Assembly: GCA_001304505.1 (NCBI GenBank)
Contig: LJUQ01000002.1
Span: forward strand, 1-55,205
Source of the DNA: Bacteroides sp. SM23_62_1
GTDB lineage: Bacteria > Bacteroidota > Bacteroidia > Bacteroidales > SM23-62
Length of the DNA stretch: 55,205 nt
Direction: 5' to 3'
The notes under the pieces were generated by a model. The model saw nothing but the letters and a program-made list of their open reading frames with translations. It searched no databases and was not told the origin of the DNA. Below, piece after piece: positions 17,220 through 29,107 of the stretch (position 1 is the first letter of the stretch; each line of letters begins with the position of its first letter). The translations under genes and the position numbers were made by a program.

Positions 17220-17771
17220 TTAAATGGAAACCCGGAATTCATTGTTTGGAAAGGATTCTGGGGCAATAATATCAAGTAATCTAAGATCGTTTTTTGATCT
17301 TAAGTACTTCTCAACCTGTATTTTCCAATATTTTCTTATTTTGGCGAACTCAAATTGTGATAATGCGGTTTCTGTTGGGATTAAGAACAATTTTCCAACA
17401 CGGTTTAGAACCATAATTAGCTCCAGAGGCTTAACCCAACCTGGTAAAATAAGATCAGCTAGTAAAGCAATATATCTTAGACTTGTATGTTGAATAACAG
17501 GTTGAATTAGACGGAATAAGATGTCCTGTGTATTACAGAGGATTTTAAAAACACACTGTTCTCTAGAACAATTGATTTGGACTATTGGAACTTCTCGCCA
17601 GTAGATCTGACTAGAATGATCTGGTTGATGGCATATATCATAAAGAAAATCAATACTAATTTGTTTTACACGTCCAATTTTTAAAATTGTTTCTATCTGA
17701 GCATCACGATCAAATGAGAAGTGAAACGGTTCTTTTCTTTCGAAAATTAACTGGATCATCTTACAGTTCAT
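17220..17771 (-). CDS. Hypothetical protein
   Basis: The 183-residue protein is probably soluble, with mixed alpha/beta composition and a hydrophobic helix near residues 97-112 (TSLRYIALLADLIL). Several Cys residues (3, 47, ~69, 73, 79) lie in the N-terminal half but not in a clear metal motif. I do not recognise the family. It sits between the M50 protease and the Rag-like operon on the same strand but is separated from each by more than 140 bases, so it probably has its own promoter. Confidence 0.55.
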   Translation of the reverse strand: MNCKMIQLIFERKEPFHFSFDRDAQIETILKIGRVKQISIDFLYDICHQPDHSSQIYWREVPIVQINCSREQCVFKILCNTQDILFRLIQPVIQHTSLRYIALLADLILPGWVKPLELIMVLNRVGKLFLIPTETALSQFEFAKIRKYWKIQVEKYLRSKNDLRLLDIIAPESFPNNEFRVSI

Positions 17772-17920: not shown

Positions 17921-18850
17921 TCAGGACTCTATCATGCTTTTTAGCTGGGAACTAAAAGCAAGGACTTTATTATAAAGGGAAGGGATTTGCTCATTTTTCT
18001 CTCTAAGAAGATCTTTCGGGAATCCAAAGAACAAGGCGAGACCACTTTCCATGAATCTTATGATAAACACACGACGGTCTGACTCAATTAAAATTGATGT
18101 AGATTTTTGGTTTTCTGAAGCAGACAATCGTTCAACCACCGCGTCGAAGAACTCCTTAACCTCAGAAAGTGTTATATGGTCAAATCTAGAAACATTATTT
18201 ACTTTTGTAAGAGGAGCCCCCTCTTTTGTAAATATCTGAGCCATATCAGCACCATTGTGGCGAATAAAAGTTTCTAAAAGAGGTCTGAGAGTTTTACGGG
18301 CACCACTGGCTTCTGCGTACACGTCTCCCATCGCTCGAAAAATAGAGTCGTCAAAAACAGATGTTGAAAAATACTTTGTGCTCTGGGTTACACCAGAGGA
18401 AAGATAATCATTAATTGTTTTTCTAACTTCATCTTTAAGCTTCCTTGGGATAAGATCCGTTTTATGCTGAAAAATGAAGATAGTAGCCTCAGGACTAAAT
18501 TGTTTTAATTTCTTTAAAGACAGATCTAAATAATATTTCGCCCGCGAGATATCCTTTATTTCAATTGAATCAACAACAAACACAAGAGATTTCACACCAC
18601 TAAAAATAAATTCTGATAATTCTCCTGTGAACCGATCTAAGAATGCAGTTTGGCCTCCTAAATCAAAAATGGTGAGTTCAGTTCCTGCAATGACTTTTTG
18701 CTTTCGTTCATAATCAATAGTAGCATGATAACTGTCGTCTTTCGAAGGGATCTTCCCCTCAGTTACTACACGGATGATTGTCGACTTTCCTGATTTGGCT
18801 AGCCCTAGAATCAGAATTTTACTTGTTTTCTTTCTTGCTAGATAGGACAT
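17921..18850 (-). CDS. Rag/Gtr-like small GTPase with C-terminal roadblock-like domain
   Basis: The 309-residue protein has G1 GLAKSGKS (16-23), G3 DLGGQTAF, G4 QHKTD and a G5-region STSVFDDSI. HKxD at G4 and the (T/S)S(I/V)(W/F/Y)D segment are hallmarks of the Rag/Gtr1 branch, unlike Ras or Arf. About 115 C-terminal residues, including ADMAQIFTKEGAPL and STSILIESDRRVFIIRF, have the strand-helix pattern of a roadblock domain, the architecture of eukaryotic Rag GTPases. It would switch between GDP and GTP states, probably as a heterodimer. It is the last gene of a four-gene operon; ATG 18850 has GAGGT nine bases upstream, next to the stop of the preceding gene. Confidence 0.88.
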   Translation of the reverse strand: MSYLARKKTSKILILGLAKSGKSTIIRVVTEGKIPSKDDSYHATIDYERKQKVIAGTELTIFDLGGQTAFLDRFTGELSEFIFSGVKSLVFVVDSIEIKDISRAKYYLDLSLKKLKQFSPEATIFIFQHKTDLIPRKLKDEVRKTINDYLSSGVTQSTKYFSTSVFDDSIFRAMGDVYAEASGARKTLRPLLETFIRHNGADMAQIFTKEGAPLTKVNNVSRFDHITLSEVKEFFDAVVERLSASENQKSTSILIESDRRVFIIRFMESGLALFFGFPKDLLREKNEQIPSLYNKVLAFSSQLKSMIES

Positions 18851-18866
18851 ACTTCGTGGACCTCAT

Positions 18867-19658
18867 TTAAACGCCAATTTTTTGAATGGTTCCGATTTTT
18901 TCAAGGATCATCTCACGTTCGATTGGATCCGTTACATCTCGAATTGTAAATTCGTTTTTAAACCTGTTTGAATTTAAATTCGTAGCAGTGCGTCCAGCTA
19001 GAAACATGAGTCGCTGAGGAGCGGAATCGTTGAGTTTTATTAGGAGTATTCGTTTTATTACTCCATTGATTATGATTAATATTGGATGAATGGTGAAATC
19101 ATCACTAGGTTTTAAAGTGATTAATTCCCCTTCAGCATTAATGGTAAAGAATTCCAAACCACCCCTTTCAGGAATATAGTAAGGTTTCTCTGGTTCAACA
19201 GGAATATCTACGCTTGAAATTTCTTTAATACGTTTTAAGATTCGCTCCATGATAGTAGGGTCAGTGAGGTTATCCTCAATATAGATTGTCTGAATTTCCT
19301 CTTTTAACGCTTTTTCAATAGTAGCATGTTGAAGAAAAATCCGATCACGGTCTTTAGAGTTAAATAACAACCAAATAGTGGATTCACGACCATGTTGATC
19401 AATTCGTATATCATCTGTCTGAGTGGGGGCAACAGTAAATGACATTGCTAAAGCTTCTAGGTTGGGAGAATCAGGAATTGGAATAGATCCATGTAACCGA
19501 TAATGTTGTTTCTCCGCTACTGTTCCTGCGCCCATTGAAAGAATAGTCATCCCAATAACACTTAACTTAACCGTAGTGTCTTCCCCTATTGGAGAGAGAT
19601 TTAAAAGTGGAAATGGTCCCATATCGGTCATAGTCGTTACAATTAATCCAGAAATCAT
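18867..19658 (-). CDS. Longin-like protein of the Rag-like GTPase operon
   Basis: The 263-residue protein begins with a strand-turn-strand (GLIVTTMTDMGPFPLLNLSP), continues with YRLHGSIPIP and LEALAMSFTV, then STIWLLFNSKDRD followed by a helix. This beta-beta-alpha-beta-strand-helix order is what a longin fold would show and resembles the N-termini encoded at 26972-28000 and 28175-29107. I assign it from pattern only. A second beta-rich part (~165-250) follows. The start ATG 19658 has AAAGGAG at good spacing. It lies between the pseudo-GTPase and a Rag-like GTPase with gaps of 30 and 16 bases, so it is a good candidate regulator or scaffold of these GTPases. Confidence 0.55.
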   Translation of the reverse strand: MISGLIVTTMTDMGPFPLLNLSPIGEDTTVKLSVIGMTILSMGAGTVAEKQHYRLHGSIPIPDSPNLEALAMSFTVAPTQTDDIRIDQHGRESTIWLLFNSKDRDRIFLQHATIEKALKEEIQTIYIEDNLTDPTIMERILKRIKEISSVDIPVEPEKPYYIPERGGLEFFTINAEGELITLKPSDDFTIHPILIIINGVIKRILLIKLNDSAPQRLMFLAGRTATNLNSNRFKNEFTIRDVTDPIEREMILEKIGTIQKIGV

Positions 19659-19688
19659 CTTAAGTGTCTCCTTTTCAAGTTATTCACC

Positions 19689-20636
19689 TTACTTTAGCCA
19701 TGAAGTAATTTTAGTAGAGATCTCGCGACATTCTTTTTCAATAGTGGTATAAGCTTCAGCATTGAACTTAAATGCTGATTCTATTCCAATAAATATCAAT
19801 TTTATTCCTATATCAACCGATTGAGTTATCATTAAAAAATCTTCAATTCTAAGAATATTGGTTTTAGCTTTTGGAGCAGTATCAAACGCTTCAGATTGAT
19901 CCAACATTCTAATAAGTTGGGGACCGACTTTTTCCTCCCAGCTTTGGGTCTTCCCTACTGCTTGAAGGATTTTATGGTTCGAAGATAATAGGAATGCTCC
20001 TGCAAATCCAAAAGCAATCATTTTGTCTTTTATAAAGCCACGAATCTTACGTTGTTTTTCTTGATCTATAGTTAGAAGTGCTTCTGAAGCTAGATCTTGA
20101 CGAGTTTCAATGAAATTAGAGGCTTTGTTAATTAATTGGGTGAAGATTAGGTTAGTTAACCTCTGTTCATCTGGTCCTTTAAGAGAAACAATGTATGAAG
20201 GGATATCACGGGGGTAAAATTGCTGAAAACGAGTAACTACTTCATTCTTTATTCGGGTTCGTTCTGTTTCGTTAGTAATTAAGTGTCCTCGATTTAGAAG
20301 CAAAATGACCTGATAATTCTTATTTACGTCAGTGATCTCTGCAGTAATTTTCTGAAAGTCAGTTGCGACTTCATCTAATAATTGATAGGAAATATCATGG
20401 ATGTAGACTAAGGTATTTATTTTCATTAGAATTTTTTCACGAATAGGAGGAACTAGATTTGTGATATAGTCAGAGTCTTCTTTCTTGATACGAGATGGGC
20501 TTAACCAATCATAATAAACGACATTCTGGAATATATTAAGATCCGGATCCGATCTTCCAAGTCTCATTATCTGGTTGAAGAGAAGATCTTTTCCAGAATG
20601 TGACATTCCTGAAAATGCGATAAGGTTTTGCCGCAA
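19689..20636 (-). CDS. Degenerate Rag-like GTPase (probable pseudo-GTPase) with roadblock-like tail
   Basis: The start chosen is TTG 20636, five bases after GAGGAG, giving 315 residues; the frame extends to 20708, but that would overlap the upstream gene by 62 bases. A P-loop-like G1 survives (FSGMSHSGKD), but the switch II DxxGQ is replaced by VVYYDWLSPS and the G4 region reads LLLNRGHL, without (N/H)KxD. The C-terminal ~120 residues (AGAFLLSSNHKILQAV onward) look roadblock-like. It is therefore probably nucleotide-binding at most and not a normal GTPase. It follows the intact Rag-like gene by 10 bases, which suggests an obligate heterodimer analogous to RagA-RagC. Confidence 0.6.
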   Translation of the reverse strand: MRQNLIAFSGMSHSGKDLLFNQIMRLGRSDPDLNIFQNVVYYDWLSPSRIKKEDSDYITNLVPPIREKILMKINTLVYIHDISYQLLDEVATDFQKITAEITDVNKNYQVILLLNRGHLITNETERTRIKNEVVTRFQQFYPRDIPSYIVSLKGPDEQRLTNLIFTQLINKASNFIETRQDLASEALLTIDQEKQRKIRGFIKDKMIAFGFAGAFLLSSNHKILQAVGKTQSWEEKVGPQLIRMLDQSEAFDTAPKAKTNILRIEDFLMITQSVDIGIKLIFIGIESAFKFNAEAYTTIEKECREISTKITSWLK

Positions 20637-20646
20637 GATGACTCCT

Positions 20647-21651
20647 CTAAATTGGCGTTTTAAGCATAGTTTCAAGTTGGTTTGACAGTAAATTGATTGT
20701 CTCTTCAATTTCTTGAAGATTGCGTGTTTCTAACATTGATTTCTCATCACTGGAGATTAGAATAAGTAAGTGATGTGGTGGTAATTTTGATTTGTACATC
20801 ATTACTGATCCAAGTCGTTTTAATTCAGATTTTGAACCGGTAATTAATTTTAGATCATTTGATTTATCTAAAAGTGTTAAAATATGTTGAATTTCGTTTA
20901 CTTCTAAATCCGAGGCGTTCACTTTGAAATTAGGATCCTCCAAAGACATCAAAATGACTTCGTCTAGACGATTCATAAACTTAAGAGTGTGGAGAACTTG
21001 TTGAATTGGTCGAAGTCGAAGCCTCTGTTTAATTGCCTGTAAATCTTCTTCTTTTTCAACGGTTTCAGCTTCAGGTATGACTTCACTTGCCTCTGCAGTA
21101 ATCCGTTTAAACGCCTCATGAATCGAATTGTCATATATTGATGTTTGTAAGAATGTAATACTTTTTGCTGGCGCTGAATCTTGAAACATCTCCATTAGGA
21201 ACTCCATTCTTTCCGCTCTTTGTGTAAGATCGGGCAAAAGATCAGTCTTGTGTAAAAGTACATAAATTGCAGGTTGGACATCTGACATCTCTTCTAGCCT
21301 GCCGACACCTTCAACAAATGCTTTTAAAGAAGCGGGGAACTTCTCTGGAGTAGCAATATCACAGATAAAGACTAATACAGCTACATTACTAAAGATGAAC
21401 GAACTCATGCTGCTTAAGAAGCGCTTCAGAAAAACTTCCTGGCCACCGAGGTCCATAACGGTGATCGGTTCATCTGCGACTTGTTCAATCTGTCGTTCGT
21501 AATTTAAAGTCGCCGCATAATTCTGAGTCTCTTCAGGGGCCTTTCCTTCAAAAACAACATCTCTAATCGACGTTTTTCCAGCCTGTGACAGTCCTAGTAG
21601 GATTATTTTCCGAGCACTCTGTGTTTTCAGCTGTTTCAAGTAGTGGCTCAC
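20647..21651 (-). CDS. Rag/Gtr-like small GTPase, first gene of operon
   Basis: The 334-residue protein has G1 GLSQAGKTS (20-28), G3 DLGGQEVF, G4 LHKTD and the Rag-type segment LQTSIYDNSI. The C-terminal ~115 residues form a probable roadblock domain after a charged linker (EKEEDLQAIKQR). The GTG start at 21651 has GAGAGGT eight bases upstream. It leads an operon of Rag-like GTPase, pseudo-GTPase, longin-like protein and second Rag-like GTPase. In eukaryotes Rag heterodimers signal nutrient status at lysosomes; here only membrane-associated or cytosolic signalling can be inferred. Confidence 0.9.
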   Translation of the reverse strand: MSHYLKQLKTQSARKIILLGLSQAGKTSIRDVVFEGKAPEETQNYAATLNYERQIEQVADEPITVMDLGGQEVFLKRFLSSMSSFIFSNVAVLVFICDIATPEKFPASLKAFVEGVGRLEEMSDVQPAIYVLLHKTDLLPDLTQRAERMEFLMEMFQDSAPAKSITFLQTSIYDNSIHEAFKRITAEASEVIPEAETVEKEEDLQAIKQRLRLRPIQQVLHTLKFMNRLDEVILMSLEDPNFKVNASDLEVNEIQHILTLLDKSNDLKLITGSKSELKRLGSVMMYKSKLPPHHLLILISSDEKSMLETRNLQEIEETINLLSNQLETMLKTPI

Positions 21652-21949: not shown

Positions 21950-22297
21950 TTGCAGCAACACAAAAAAAGGGATATTTTGTGTGAAACCACATGTAAATCA
22001 TTTCGTTGTAGCGAAAAATTCCTACAGATAAAACATATGCGTGGAAAAAAACAGATTTTGTGCAGAATGGTTGAAGGGGATGAATGCATAGGTTATAAAT
22101 GTAAATATGCTGTATGTTTTTATCGTCCTCCAGCTTTGGATATTACAACTGGTAATTGTGCTCAAAAGATGAAAAATCAACAGCCTCAACGGCCTGAAAA
22201 AACCTATAAAGATGATGAGATGGACGATCCATTAAAATATCGCAAGCTTCTTGATAAAAAATTACGGAAGAATTTAAAGATCAAAGATTTTTATTAA
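21950..22297 (+). CDS. Small Cys-rich protein
   Basis: The TTG start at 21950 has GGAG about nine bases upstream and gives 115 residues; ATG 22037 (beginning MRGKKQIL) is an alternative that drops the first Cys group. Cysteines occur as CETTCKSFRC and as CRMVEGDECIGYKCKYAVC, followed by a single Cys at GNCAQK, a pattern fitting zinc or FeS binding. The C-terminal 40 residues are charged (KYRKLLDKKLRKNLK). I do not recognise the family. It is divergent from the Rag-like operon. A 61-codon frame at 21846-22031 overlaps in another phase and is rejected as the gene. Confidence 0.55.
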   Translation: MQQHKKRDILCETTCKSFRCSEKFLQIKHMRGKKQILCRMVEGDECIGYKCKYAVCFYRPPALDITTGNCAQKMKNQQPQRPEKTYKDDEMDDPLKYRKLLDKKLRKNLKIKDFY

Positions 22298-24098: not shown

Positions 24099-25001
24099 AT
24101 GAAAATTTCGCTTGTCGGACTAAGTGGTTGTGGTAAAACATCGATTTATTCGACTACACTAGGTGGAATGGCTCCTATGGAGGTTAAAGACATAGGGCCA
24201 ACCGTCATGTATGAAGTCAAGTCCCATAATTATTTGGGTCTCCAGATATCTCTTTGGGATTTTGGTGGACAAGAAAAATATAGGCAATCCTACCTAGAAA
24301 CACCAAAACTTCTAGCAAATACTACAATTCTGGTCTTTGTACTTGATCTTCATCATCCAGAAGATTTTATGAAGGCAGATAATTATTTTAAGGAGGTTTT
24401 TGCCGCTATTAAAGAAAATGGGGGAGATCCTCGTATGGTAATTTTCTATCATAAGTATGATACAGAGGAATATCCAAAGGAACAGCTGGAAGAGAATTTA
24501 ACCAAGGCCAGAGAACTACCATTTATCAATGAAATTGACCCTGAATCCTTTATAACATCCATTTATCGGCAAGAAGAATTAAGCGAAGTATTTAGACAAA
24601 TTCTGATTTCAGATTTTGACCAATTAAGAGATAGTGTCGAACATGCCCAAAAACACCTCATGAAACTAAATTCAAAGGTCATTGTAAGCGATGTGAATGG
24701 AAATGTCATAACTCACAGTATCAAGGGTTTTTCCACTGGAATCCAGCTTCGTGAGGACTTGCGAGATTATATTCTTTCTTGTAATGTACTACGAGAAAAT
24801 TTCCTCACTAGTGATTCAGCTTCTTTTTCTGCCATTTCAGACACAAAAAAATTACAATTACATATCTTTAGTTTTGTTCTAGCAGTACTCATCATGATAG
24901 ATGAAGGTGCAGCAATTGACCCGCCAGAAGATATCGAAGCTTTACTAAAAGATATGAAGGTCTTTGCAGAATTGATTATCGAAGCGAGTAGAGAAGAATA
25001 A
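24099..25001 (+). CDS. Rag-like small GTPase with roadblock-like C-terminal domain
   Basis: The 300-residue protein has G1 GLSGCGKTS (7-15), G3 WDFGGQEKY, G4 YHKYD and G5-region ITSIYR. The C-terminal part has VIVSDVNGNVITHS, the typical first strand pair of a roadblock/LC7 domain, then KLQLHIFSFVLAVLIMIDEG. The N-terminus begins almost directly with the first strand. It shares the HKxD G4 with the other Rag-like genes. ATG 24099 has TTGAGG eight bases upstream. Its stop is only 10 bases from the convergent stop of the FrhB-like gene, placing it beside a redox operon. Confidence 0.9.
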   Translation: MKISLVGLSGCGKTSIYSTTLGGMAPMEVKDIGPTVMYEVKSHNYLGLQISLWDFGGQEKYRQSYLETPKLLANTTILVFVLDLHHPEDFMKADNYFKEVFAAIKENGGDPRMVIFYHKYDTEEYPKEQLEENLTKARELPFINEIDPESFITSIYRQEELSEVFRQILISDFDQLRDSVEHAQKHLMKLNSKVIVSDVNGNVITHSIKGFSTGIQLREDLRDYILSCNVLRENFLTSDSASFSAISDTKKLQLHIFSFVLAVLIMIDEGAAIDPPEDIEALLKDMKVFAELIIEASREE

Positions 25002-26971: not shown

Positions 26972-28000
26972 CTAGCCTACAATTCTTTTTACTCTTATTG
27001 TCCCTTTTTCATCTTCAATCTTAAGGAAATATATTATTCCACTTGAATCAGCCGGCTCAAAATCAATGGTAACTTCCTCATTTGGTGCCCATTTCTTTAT
27101 CTTTGAAACAAGAATGTCCTTTCCAAAAAATCCTTGCGATTCATATATTTTCAGAATGGCATTAACAATCACATCTGAACTGCTATTGCGTGCTGTTACT
27201 TGGACCAGCTTTTCATCTTCAGAATGTTTTATATTTACGATTCTCACGCGTTTTGGTTCTGGAGCTAGTTTTACATCAGTTTTTTCCTTTTTAAAATCAT
27301 TCTTGTGTCCTGTCGGTATTGAAAATCGTAATTGGGGTTTTTTACTGGTTTGTATTTGCAGTTCTTGAATAGAAGTAGTTGTCTCATCTATTGCTCCTAA
27401 GGAATTTTCCTCTAATTGGACTTCGAGTTTAGCTATGGGCATTTTAGGAATTAACGAAGTACATAATTTTATAAGTTCATGTTCAATATCAGCAGATTTC
27501 TGTTTCAGAAATTCTTCAACGTCCAAATTTTCTTGCTTTTTAAGGTGATTTTCAACAAGAATGCATAAATTTTCTCCAATTGACCCTTGTATTCTTGTCT
27601 TTAACTCATGTAATATTTCTTGAGCGATGAAAGAGACTGTTGATGGAGCTCTCACAATTAAAACAAATCTTTCTGCTTGCCATTTCTTAGAGTCCATTCC
27701 CGAACGTCTTTTAGCTCGTCTAGTCTGACATAATATAAGTGTAGCACAATAGATAACCCCCTCCAATTCTAGATCCATGGAGATAAACTTTTCTGACTCT
27801 AAAAACTTATCCTGATGCCACCATATACTATGTATCGAAATGATCTTTTTTTCCTGCTTATTTTTTAATAATTCTTGAGGATACGCAAAAAGTGGGACAT
27901 GTCCTTTTACTTCGTCAAAGAAGTAAAGAAAAAATCCATAAGAATTATCTGTGATTGATTGGTCAAGATCAGTAGGAAGGGAATGATCCCCATGACTCAT
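26972..28000 (-). CDS. Longin-like protein with the shared C-terminal domain (paralogue A)
   Basis: The 342-residue protein has an N-terminal alpha/beta domain (~15-180), beginning YGFFLYFFDEVKGHVPLFAY and containing RFVLIVRAPSTVSF followed by a helix; the order fits a longin-like fold. A linker at ~190-248 is rich in Lys, Glu and Thr. Residues 250-342 form a beta-rich domain whose pattern (RNSS, KKWAPNEE, IDFEP) matches the tails of the FrhB-like protein and of paralogue B. Start ATG 28000 follows AAGGAG. It is the first gene of the longin-CBS-FrhB operon. It is probably cytosolic; I infer an adaptor role. Confidence 0.7.
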   Translation of the reverse strand: MSHGDHSLPTDLDQSITDNSYGFFLYFFDEVKGHVPLFAYPQELLKNKQEKKIISIHSIWWHQDKFLESEKFISMDLELEGVIYCATLILCQTRRAKRRSGMDSKKWQAERFVLIVRAPSTVSFIAQEILHELKTRIQGSIGENLCILVENHLKKQENLDVEEFLKQKSADIEHELIKLCTSLIPKMPIAKLEVQLEENSLGAIDETTTSIQELQIQTSKKPQLRFSIPTGHKNDFKKEKTDVKLAPEPKRVRIVNIKHSEDEKLVQVTARNSSSDVIVNAILKIYESQGFFGKDILVSKIKKWAPNEEVTIDFEPADSSGIIYFLKIEDEKGTIRVKRIVG

Positions 28001-28174: not shown

Positions 28175-29107
28175 CTAGCTAACTGTAGCAGTACCAACCT
28201 CAAGAGATTTGATATCTATTGTTGTTCTTTTGCTGCTGATTTTGATGAGATAGTTTTCAGTTGTATCAGATCTAGGAAATTCTAAAATCAAATCCTCCTT
28301 TAAGGGCCATTCTTCAAGTTCTTGCTCCCAAATAGGTTCACTAAAAAATTCAGTTCTTTTTGAGATTTGAATTAGGATATCCCTCAAATGTTCGCTTTGG
28401 TTAATTAAAATTACCATTAATCCACCAGTTTCTTCCGATGGTAAAATTCTCATCGTAATTCTCTGTTTAAACAAATCATGAGCGCAAAGAGTCGTCTCTA
28501 ATGGAGTCATTGATGAATTAACTGGACTAGGAATTATCTCCGTTGTAGGAGTACTTATTTTCTCGCTAACGCGGTTGGAAAAATTCCTCCATATAGATTC
28601 AAGCTCTTTTTCGACCTTTGTTGTTTGTTTTAGAAGCTCTTTGTACTCCCTCTTTCTAATGGGATTTGATTCTAGTTTTTCACGAGCGTACAATAAATCA
28701 AGATTTGAACCGATTTTATCTTCTAATGTAGTCTTGAAATTGAGAAAAGTCTCATTAGGAATAGGATTAGTATCTTTCCAATTTTTAATCACTATACCAT
28801 AGATTGTATCTTTCTTTAGAGAGCTTTCTTGTGTTGTTTGAAGTTGAAACGCTGAATACACAAATTCGGAGAATTTCAGGTCAATACGGAGAGGTACATT
28901 TTCTATTTTCCATACACAATGCGTCTTCAGAATATTAATCTCATTTTTATCATCCTGTAATCTTGCTGGATACGAGAAGAGGATCCGTAATCCATGAGTA
29001 GTATCAAAAGAACATAAAAAGAACCCTATTAAACCTACTTTTGAGTCAAAAGCATGCTTTTTAGGTGATGTTATGATCTTGGTTTCGAAGAAGGGATCGA
29101 TATTCAT
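28175..29107 (-). CDS. Longin-like protein with the shared C-terminal domain (paralogue B)
   Basis: The 310-residue protein is a paralogue of the next gene downstream. The N-terminus reads GLIGFFLCSFDTTHGLRILF, in line with GFFLYFFDEVKGHVPLF of paralogue A. A charged helical region (~130-185) follows. Residues 215-310 contain LINQSEHLRD, LEEWPLKEDL and ILEFPRSD, the same anchor pattern as in paralogue A and the FrhB-like tail. Start ATG 29107 follows AAGGAG. A 174-base gap separates it from paralogue A, so it may have its own terminator or an internal promoter. No enzyme motif is visible. Confidence 0.68.
   Translation of the reverse strand: MNIDPFFETKIITSPKKHAFDSKVGLIGFFLCSFDTTHGLRILFSYPARLQDDKNEINILKTHCVWKIENVPLRIDLKFSEFVYSAFQLQTTQESSLKKDTIYGIVIKNWKDTNPIPNETFLNFKTTLEDKIGSNLDLLYAREKLESNPIRKREYKELLKQTTKVEKELESIWRNFSNRVSEKISTPTTEIIPSPVNSSMTPLETTLCAHDLFKQRITMRILPSEETGGLMVILINQSEHLRDILIQISKRTEFFSEPIWEQELEEWPLKEDLILEFPRSDTTENYLIKISSKRTTIDIKSLEVGTATVS

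Follow-up and report, generated by a model that had tools for sequence, protein, structure and literature searches.

The stretch of DNA analyzed here (the window) comprises 55,205 nucleotides of contig LJUQ01000002.1, filed under the assembly of Bacteroides sp. SM23_62_1 (GCA_001304505.1), and carries a four-gene cluster that encodes three proteins of the Rag GTPase type and a longin protein. The genes all lie on the minus strand, in the order GTPase B (20647..21651; 334 amino acids, GTG start), pseudo-GTPase (19689..20636; 315 amino acids, TTG start at 20636), longin-gelsolin-like protein (18867..19658; 263 amino acids) and GTPase A (17921..18850; 309 amino acids), and are separated by gaps of 10, 30 and 16 bases. 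GTPases A and B each consist of a Rag-type G domain and a C-terminal roadblock-like tail, and the pseudo-GTPase of a degenerate Rag G domain with a roadblock tail. A Rag-type operon of four genes had been proposed in an earlier reading of the sequence (the original prediction), and re-reading of the genes and their strand, together with the conserved order, bears it out. The same arrangement with intact frames is found in nine other loci of the Asgard order Hodarchaeales (L009, L010, L012-L017, L019), and in L020, which shares the gene order, the longin gene contains one stop codon; three further loci (L011, L018, L021) are cut by contig ends. Because gene order and sequence are kept across Hodarchaeales, a chance arrangement is excluded. 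The ratios of nonsynonymous to synonymous substitution rates (dN/dS) between the window and L009 and L010 are 0.02 for B, 0.03-0.04 for A, 0.06-0.09 for the longin gene and 0.12-0.14 for the pseudo-GTPase gene, and all four genes are thus under purifying selection. We give about an even chance to the proposal that they constitute the operon for a Hodarchaeal Rag-type GTPase complex of several subunits.

GTPases A and B possess complete G1, G3 and G4 motifs, with HKxD at G4, that are invariant across the order. Direct reading gives GLSQAGKTS, DLGGQ, HKTD and TSIYD for B, and GLAKSGKST, DLGGQ, HKTD and TSVFD for A. The Pfam family Gtr1_RagA is matched with 121 bits by B and 117 bits by A, and with 23 bits by the pseudo-GTPase, the family cut-off being 22. 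Protein B, which is 78-96% identical to 12 other Hodarchaeales copies, matches solved structures of Gtr1/RagA with E-values down to 2e-18. The alignment of A with the RagA structure (E-value 5.8e-19) extends to RagA residue 232, inside the C-terminal domain of RagA. In the G-domain tree, A clusters (88/88 support) with A-type members from other Rag pairs of Asgard archaea, and no RagA or RagC orthologues were resolved; the link to the eukaryotic proteins is one of fold and family. By motif and family, A and B belong to the Rag proteins and retain intact G motifs, as anticipated. The three roadblock-like tails that had been predicted stand on different footings: that of the pseudo-GTPase was recovered in a structure model and by Foldseek, and those of A and B are tentatively assigned by the RagA alignment and by homology to the modeled pseudo-GTPase tail, respectively, as models were made for the pseudo-GTPase and the longin protein only.

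The protein between B and the longin gene departs from this pattern. Direct reading gives GMSHSGKD at the P-loop (20586..20609, minus strand) and NRGH (N115 R116 G117 H118; 20283..20294, minus strand) in place of the (N/H)KxD base-recognition motif at G4, and no DxxGQ. The G3 and G4 motifs are missing in all members, whereas GxSHSGKD, with its Lys and Asp, and NRGHLI are invariant in the order. In 13 of 13 sequences, the Mg-binding Ser/Thr that follows the P-loop Lys is replaced by Asp. The original prediction was correct about the loss of DxxGQ and (N/H)KxD, and less so about the P-loop, which is only partly kept. The invariance of the GK pair and of NRGH implies that the decayed pocket still has some use. 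The protein might bind a nucleotide or another phosphate ligand with non-guanine specificity, the Asp taking the place of Ser/Thr, and act as an atypical switch that is not dead, a reading for which the invariant P-loop Gly and Lys and the invariant NRGH would speak. We consider it quite improbable, since the DxxGQ of switch II is gone, the guanine-recognizing Asp is changed to His, and the Mg-ligand Ser/Thr is lost.

The gene of this protein is less conserved than its neighbors, as a mis-framed or decaying gene might be. However, its start codon is TTG in each of the 13 genomes and lies 10 to 13 bases past the B stop, and at most loci its AGG ribosome-binding motif overlaps the B stop codon. 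The frame is intact in all genomes, the dN/dS values of 0.12-0.16 point to constraint, and the degenerate residues are invariant. Mis-framing had been raised at the outset, with relatives that keep full G motifs as its expected sign; no such relative is present among the members. The kept start and frame, the dN/dS values and the invariant residues rule out decay or mis-framing, whose probability we place close to nil. The gene is a functional protein gene under a constraint that is weaker than that of its neighbors but clear. The full-length protein was found in 12 of 227 Asgard genomes, matching the Hodarchaeales set, and nowhere else among the 227, which points to a pseudo-GTPase that is restricted to this order and is not ancestral.

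The AlphaFold2 model of the pseudo-GTPase, computed from an alignment of 12 sequences, has a mean predicted local distance difference test (pLDDT) score of 75. It displays a Ras-like domain followed by the succession helix-strand-strand-helix-three strands-helix, which is the order of a roadblock domain (19692..20063, minus strand). A Foldseek search with the model returned Rag, Gtr or Asgard Rag-like chains at all ranks from 1 to 35 (E-values from 2.6e-11 to 1.5e-7), followed by MglB roadblocks with a template modeling (TM) score of about 0.7; the whole-chain root mean square deviation is high, and the relative placement of the two domains is not to be trusted. Pfam Gtr1_RagA is matched by 12 of 12 members. 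These features establish the middle protein as a maintained Rag-fold pseudo-GTPase, with a GTPase fold that lacks the G motifs and a gene that is conserved. The expectation that one subunit had become a pseudo-GTPase is therefore upheld by the conserved motif loss, the selection on the gene and the Rag fold of the model. At Foldseek rank 41 appears 2gnx, an uncharacterized mouse protein that aligns over the full length of the pseudo-GTPase model (E-value 1e-5, high root mean square deviation) and may be a KICSTOR subunit.

The roadblock tail of the pseudo-GTPase is related to that of B with an E-value of 2.4e-5, compared with 0.03 or worse for the tails of A, of GTPase C (a third Rag-like GTPase encoded in the window) and of Arf-type proteins. 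The whole-protein profile also ranks B first (4e-4 over 288 columns), ahead of T2 (0.003), C (0.05) and A (0.07). The simplest history for these similarities would be a tandem duplication of B followed by the loss of the G motifs.

The third gene of the operon encodes a two-domain protein. Its AlphaFold2 model (pLDDT 73) shows the longin order of elements, beta-beta-alpha-beta-beta-beta-alpha, over about residues 1-122 (19293..19658, minus strand), and a second domain over about residues 166-256 (18891..19163, minus strand). The top Foldseek match of the first domain is the Lokiarchaeota longin 8yqg (E-value 1.9e-5, probability 1.00), below which rank GATOR1 chains, the yeast Lst4 longin and C9orf72. 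The second domain matches Thorarchaeota ProGel 7c2f and many gelsolin domains (probability 1.00, E-values of 0.005-0.04). The longin-like character assigned earlier thus holds for the N-terminal fold, and the second, probably gelsolin-like domain had been missed. The sequence has no match among solved structures or in Pfam. Full-length profile homology to a family in other Asgard genomes is strong (E-value 1.5e-24), and the two-domain architecture is therefore old within the group.

Matches to the longin family occur in 56 of the 227 Asgard genomes. A gene for a Rag or Arf-roadblock GTPase lies at most two genes from the family member in 24 of 55 sampled loci; the sample was not random, and without six rows that were fetched for their GTPases the count becomes 18/49. 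By our estimate, chance would give near 3%, or ~2/55, assuming ~30 such genes among ~4,000. The remaining 31 of the 55 loci lie away from GTPase genes, for example beside a tRNA methyltransferase and a JAB protease, as would suit a co-transcribed actin or membrane effector without a role in the nucleotide cycle of the GTPases. We find this account of the longin-gelsolin protein rather doubtful, given that in many genomes the family gene is linked on the same strand to GTPase pairs, and that GTPases are known to bind to longin and roadblock domains as platforms (PMC3521125, PMC10933270).

Three arrangements are prominent around the sampled family members. The first is an Arf-type triad on one strand, made up of an intact GTPase, a copy dead at G3 and a protein of the longin-gelsolin type (L125 4445-7233; L160 7173-9957; L180-L190; L172; L159); it occurs in about 13 genomes, and three others hold relatives of it. 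The intact member is an Arf-type GTPase with a tail, carries DLGGH and NKSD, and is close to eukaryotic Arf (E-value 2e-38). The dead copy has EADEET, EAGEET or DLGKE at G3, with an intact P-loop and an NKxD that is mostly kept. In the second arrangement, an A-type Rag paired with another Rag adjoins longin genes, at L122 and L138 of Hodarchaeales and at L121 of genome G260. Judged from gene content, the joint recurrence of a live GTPase, a dead or altered roadblock-tailed partner and a longin protein is a feature of both the Arf and the Rag sets. The two tails of the Arf-type triads are related to each other (E-value 4e-6) and the tail of the pseudo-GTPase is related to B, for which reason two independent duplications are favored as the origin of the dead partners. 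The original prediction of an ancestral-type unit is supported as to the link between Rag and longin proteins, but not as to the pseudo-GTPase, which is order-specific, has a B-like tail and points to a local duplication.

The second Hodarchaeal Rag locus (L122 3668-11369) encodes Hsp90, two longin proteins, a Rag of 303 amino acids and a Rag of 739 amino acids, and the shorter Rag matches the solved Gtr1 chain 8fw5_D with an E-value of 1.6e-27. In the third arrangement, at a paralogous locus (G258; L126 2044-4833), a B roadblock tail is fused to an unrelated N-terminus, next to a copy of B; the fusion suggests that the B tail is a portable pairing module. The L126 locus also encodes a short A-like protein with the altered motifs GRNT and NLGGQ.

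Rag GTPases serve TORC1 as its nutrient switches, and longin and roadblock domains are found in their eukaryotic regulators. Rag GTPases act as heterodimers, and small GTPases use dimers of longin and roadblock domains as platforms (PMC10933270, PMC3521125); actin is a target of Asgard gelsolins (PMC9834061). For the Hodarchaeal operon, we propose a Rag complex in which the roadblock tails would dimerize the GTPase-type subunits. The pseudo-GTPase, which would descend from a tandem copy of B and can probably make no use of GTP (class i of Stiegler and Boggon, PMC5593906), would be the fixed, non-cycling subunit. It would hold the intact Rag in position and set the orientation or state of this partner, with switching confined to the intact protein. 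The longin domain would bind the GTPase dimer as a GTPase-activating protein, a guanine nucleotide exchange factor or an adaptor, and read or reset its state, and the gelsolin-like domain may connect it to actin or some other partner. As a whole, this model seems to us as probable as its converse.

Several points weigh against the model. The G-domain similarity of the pseudo-GTPase is weak and marginally closer to the Arf-type pair than to B, and the G-domain tree left the protein unplaced on a long branch. Which subunits pair, including A with B, we infer from gene pairs only. The invariant P-loop Lys of the pseudo-GTPase could mean that a ligand is still bound. Pfam detects no gelsolin in the second domain of the longin protein, nor in the proteins of ~210 amino acids that match this domain; the gelsolin assignment comes from one model of medium confidence, and the domain is probably gelsolin-like.

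A different assembly is conceivable, in which A:B is the working heterodimer, similar to RagA:RagC, and the pseudo-GTPase is a decoy or inhibitory subunit that competes for the tail of A and is not part of the core. Each Asgard Rag locus examined has one A-type and one non-A Rag, as this assembly would have it; the pseudo-GTPase tail resembles only that of B and hence would suit the partner of B, and the rate at which the protein evolves, several times that of A and B, is also in keeping with a decoy. The Arf-type triads, by contrast, hold just one intact and one dead GTPase with a longin protein, an arrangement that fits a live:dead core dimer better, and we regard the decoy as a minority possibility. 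A broader generalization of the proposed Rag complex with its fixed subunit would have GTPase-roadblock dimers, each of one switching and one locked or dead subunit, operate across Heimdallarchaeia under an actin-coupling longin-gelsolin protein. The Hodarchaeal operon would then be the Rag version and keep an archaeal precursor of the eukaryotic Rag-longin pairing; we consider this unlikely at present, and the placement of genomes G220-G269 in Heimdallarchaeia is itself a guess from the match pattern.

The window is probably Hodarchaeales DNA filed under a non-Asgard genome, that is, a mis-binned contig. When named genomes were searched with protein B, 13 loci emerged, almost all in metagenome-assembled genomes of Heimdallarchaeota/Hodarchaeota, with 70-96% identity. 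The surroundings of the operon are shared with L009 (CP070695.1), and include an ABCE1-like ABC protein, a site-2-type (M50) protease, an MFS transporter and a third Rag-like GTPase. In the phylum and order of the window's own assembly almost no relatives were found, as the bin is not Asgard; within the order, protein B had a match in one other genome, a short fragment with an E-value of 2e-4. Genome G207, reached via a named Hodarchaeales locus, was the productive center for relatives. The assembly itself appears bacterial. Apart from the window, it matches the Roc model only twice and weakly, on other contigs, one of which encodes what we take, from names read off the translations, to be a bacterial-looking HflX and an aspartate-semialdehyde dehydrogenase.

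Downstream of GTPase A lies a conserved fifth gene (17220..17771, minus strand; 183 amino acids), which is found at this place in every complete locus but L020 and is fast-evolving. A Pfam search gave no family for it, and its profile has no similarity to the other operon proteins, longin and roadblock included. Upstream of the operon, GTPase C (24099..25001, plus strand; Pfam Gtr1_RagA 79 bits) is syntenic in most loci and has orthologues in further Asgard genomes. Its gene adjoins that of an FrhB/FdhB-type iron-sulfur protein, and the same pairing occurs in the Asgard loci L134, L135 and L146. Between the MFS gene and the operon, a small cysteine-rich open reading frame (21950-22297, plus strand) has a counterpart of equal length at the same place in L139. 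A neighboring pair of uncharacterized, distantly related proteins (26972-28000 and 28175-29107, minus strand) is likewise kept in L009 and L013.

The eukaryotic signature proteins recorded for Asgard archaea already include NPRL2-like longin domains and Gtr1/RagA GTPases, and the separate parts of the operon are therefore not new. No report of the pseudo-GTPase or of a longin-gelsolin fusion was found in the open-access literature, nor a dedicated paper on Hodarchaeales GTPase-longin operons, LokiRag or Heimdallarchaeia Rag; subscription journals and preprints lie outside this search. Rag-like GTPases with roadblock domains are also present in Lokiarchaeia (the MK-D1 pair; solved chains 8zla and 8yl2). 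In Lokiarchaeon MK-D1, one operon is reported to encode a Rag pair for which a heterodimer through the roadblock domains is predicted, the GTPase genes of this organism are generally not in operons with roadblock or longin genes, and the naming of partners from genome layout was found hard (PMC10933270). The Hodarchaeal GTPases, by contrast, share an operon with a longin-gelsolin protein and a pseudo-GTPase, and this order-wide link names candidate partners.

The longin protein resembles NPRL2/NPRL3 of GATOR1, FLCN/FNIP and Lst7/Lst4 in its longin fold and its association with Rag GTPases. It has a predicted gelsolin-like domain instead of the DENN region of these regulators and no sequence match to their families, and the resemblance is one of longin fold only. 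The predicted C-terminal fold is that of the Asgard gelsolins ProGel and 2DGel (7c2f, TM score 0.70 by target length), but here the gelsolin-like domain comes after a longin domain, in an operon with Rag GTPases. A Ras-like GTPase under the control of co-encoded roadblock domains is also seen in MglA/MglB, where the roadblock of MglB is a separate GTPase-activating protein, whereas in the operon it is apparently fused to each GTPase. Like p190RhoGAP pG1/pG2, CENP-M, dynein LIC and Rnd (PMC5593906), the Hodarchaeal pseudo-GTPase combines a GTPase fold and lost G motifs with selection; it differs from them in being Rag-type, roadblock-tailed and archaeal, and a Rag-fold member would enlarge a small class of pseudoenzymes.

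The archaea that carry this operon have been proposed as sister to eukaryotes (PMC10307638), a placement that is contested (PMC12395588). The Hodarchaeal cluster makes the origin of the eukaryotic nutrient-sensing Rag switches testable, and whether Rag-longin control predates eukaryotes can be addressed with four small proteins. The closest eukaryotic counterparts are the Rag/Gtr heterodimers (RagA/B with RagC/D; Gtr1-Gtr2), with which the Hodarchaeal proteins share the Gtr1_RagA G domain, HKxD at G4 and a probable roadblock-type C-terminus, A and B matching the RagA and Gtr1 structures with E-values of about 1e-18. Unlike the eukaryotic systems, which are tied to the lysosome and TORC1, the operon combines three GTPase-type subunits, one of them a pseudo-GTPase, whose pairing is predicted here from gene pairs.

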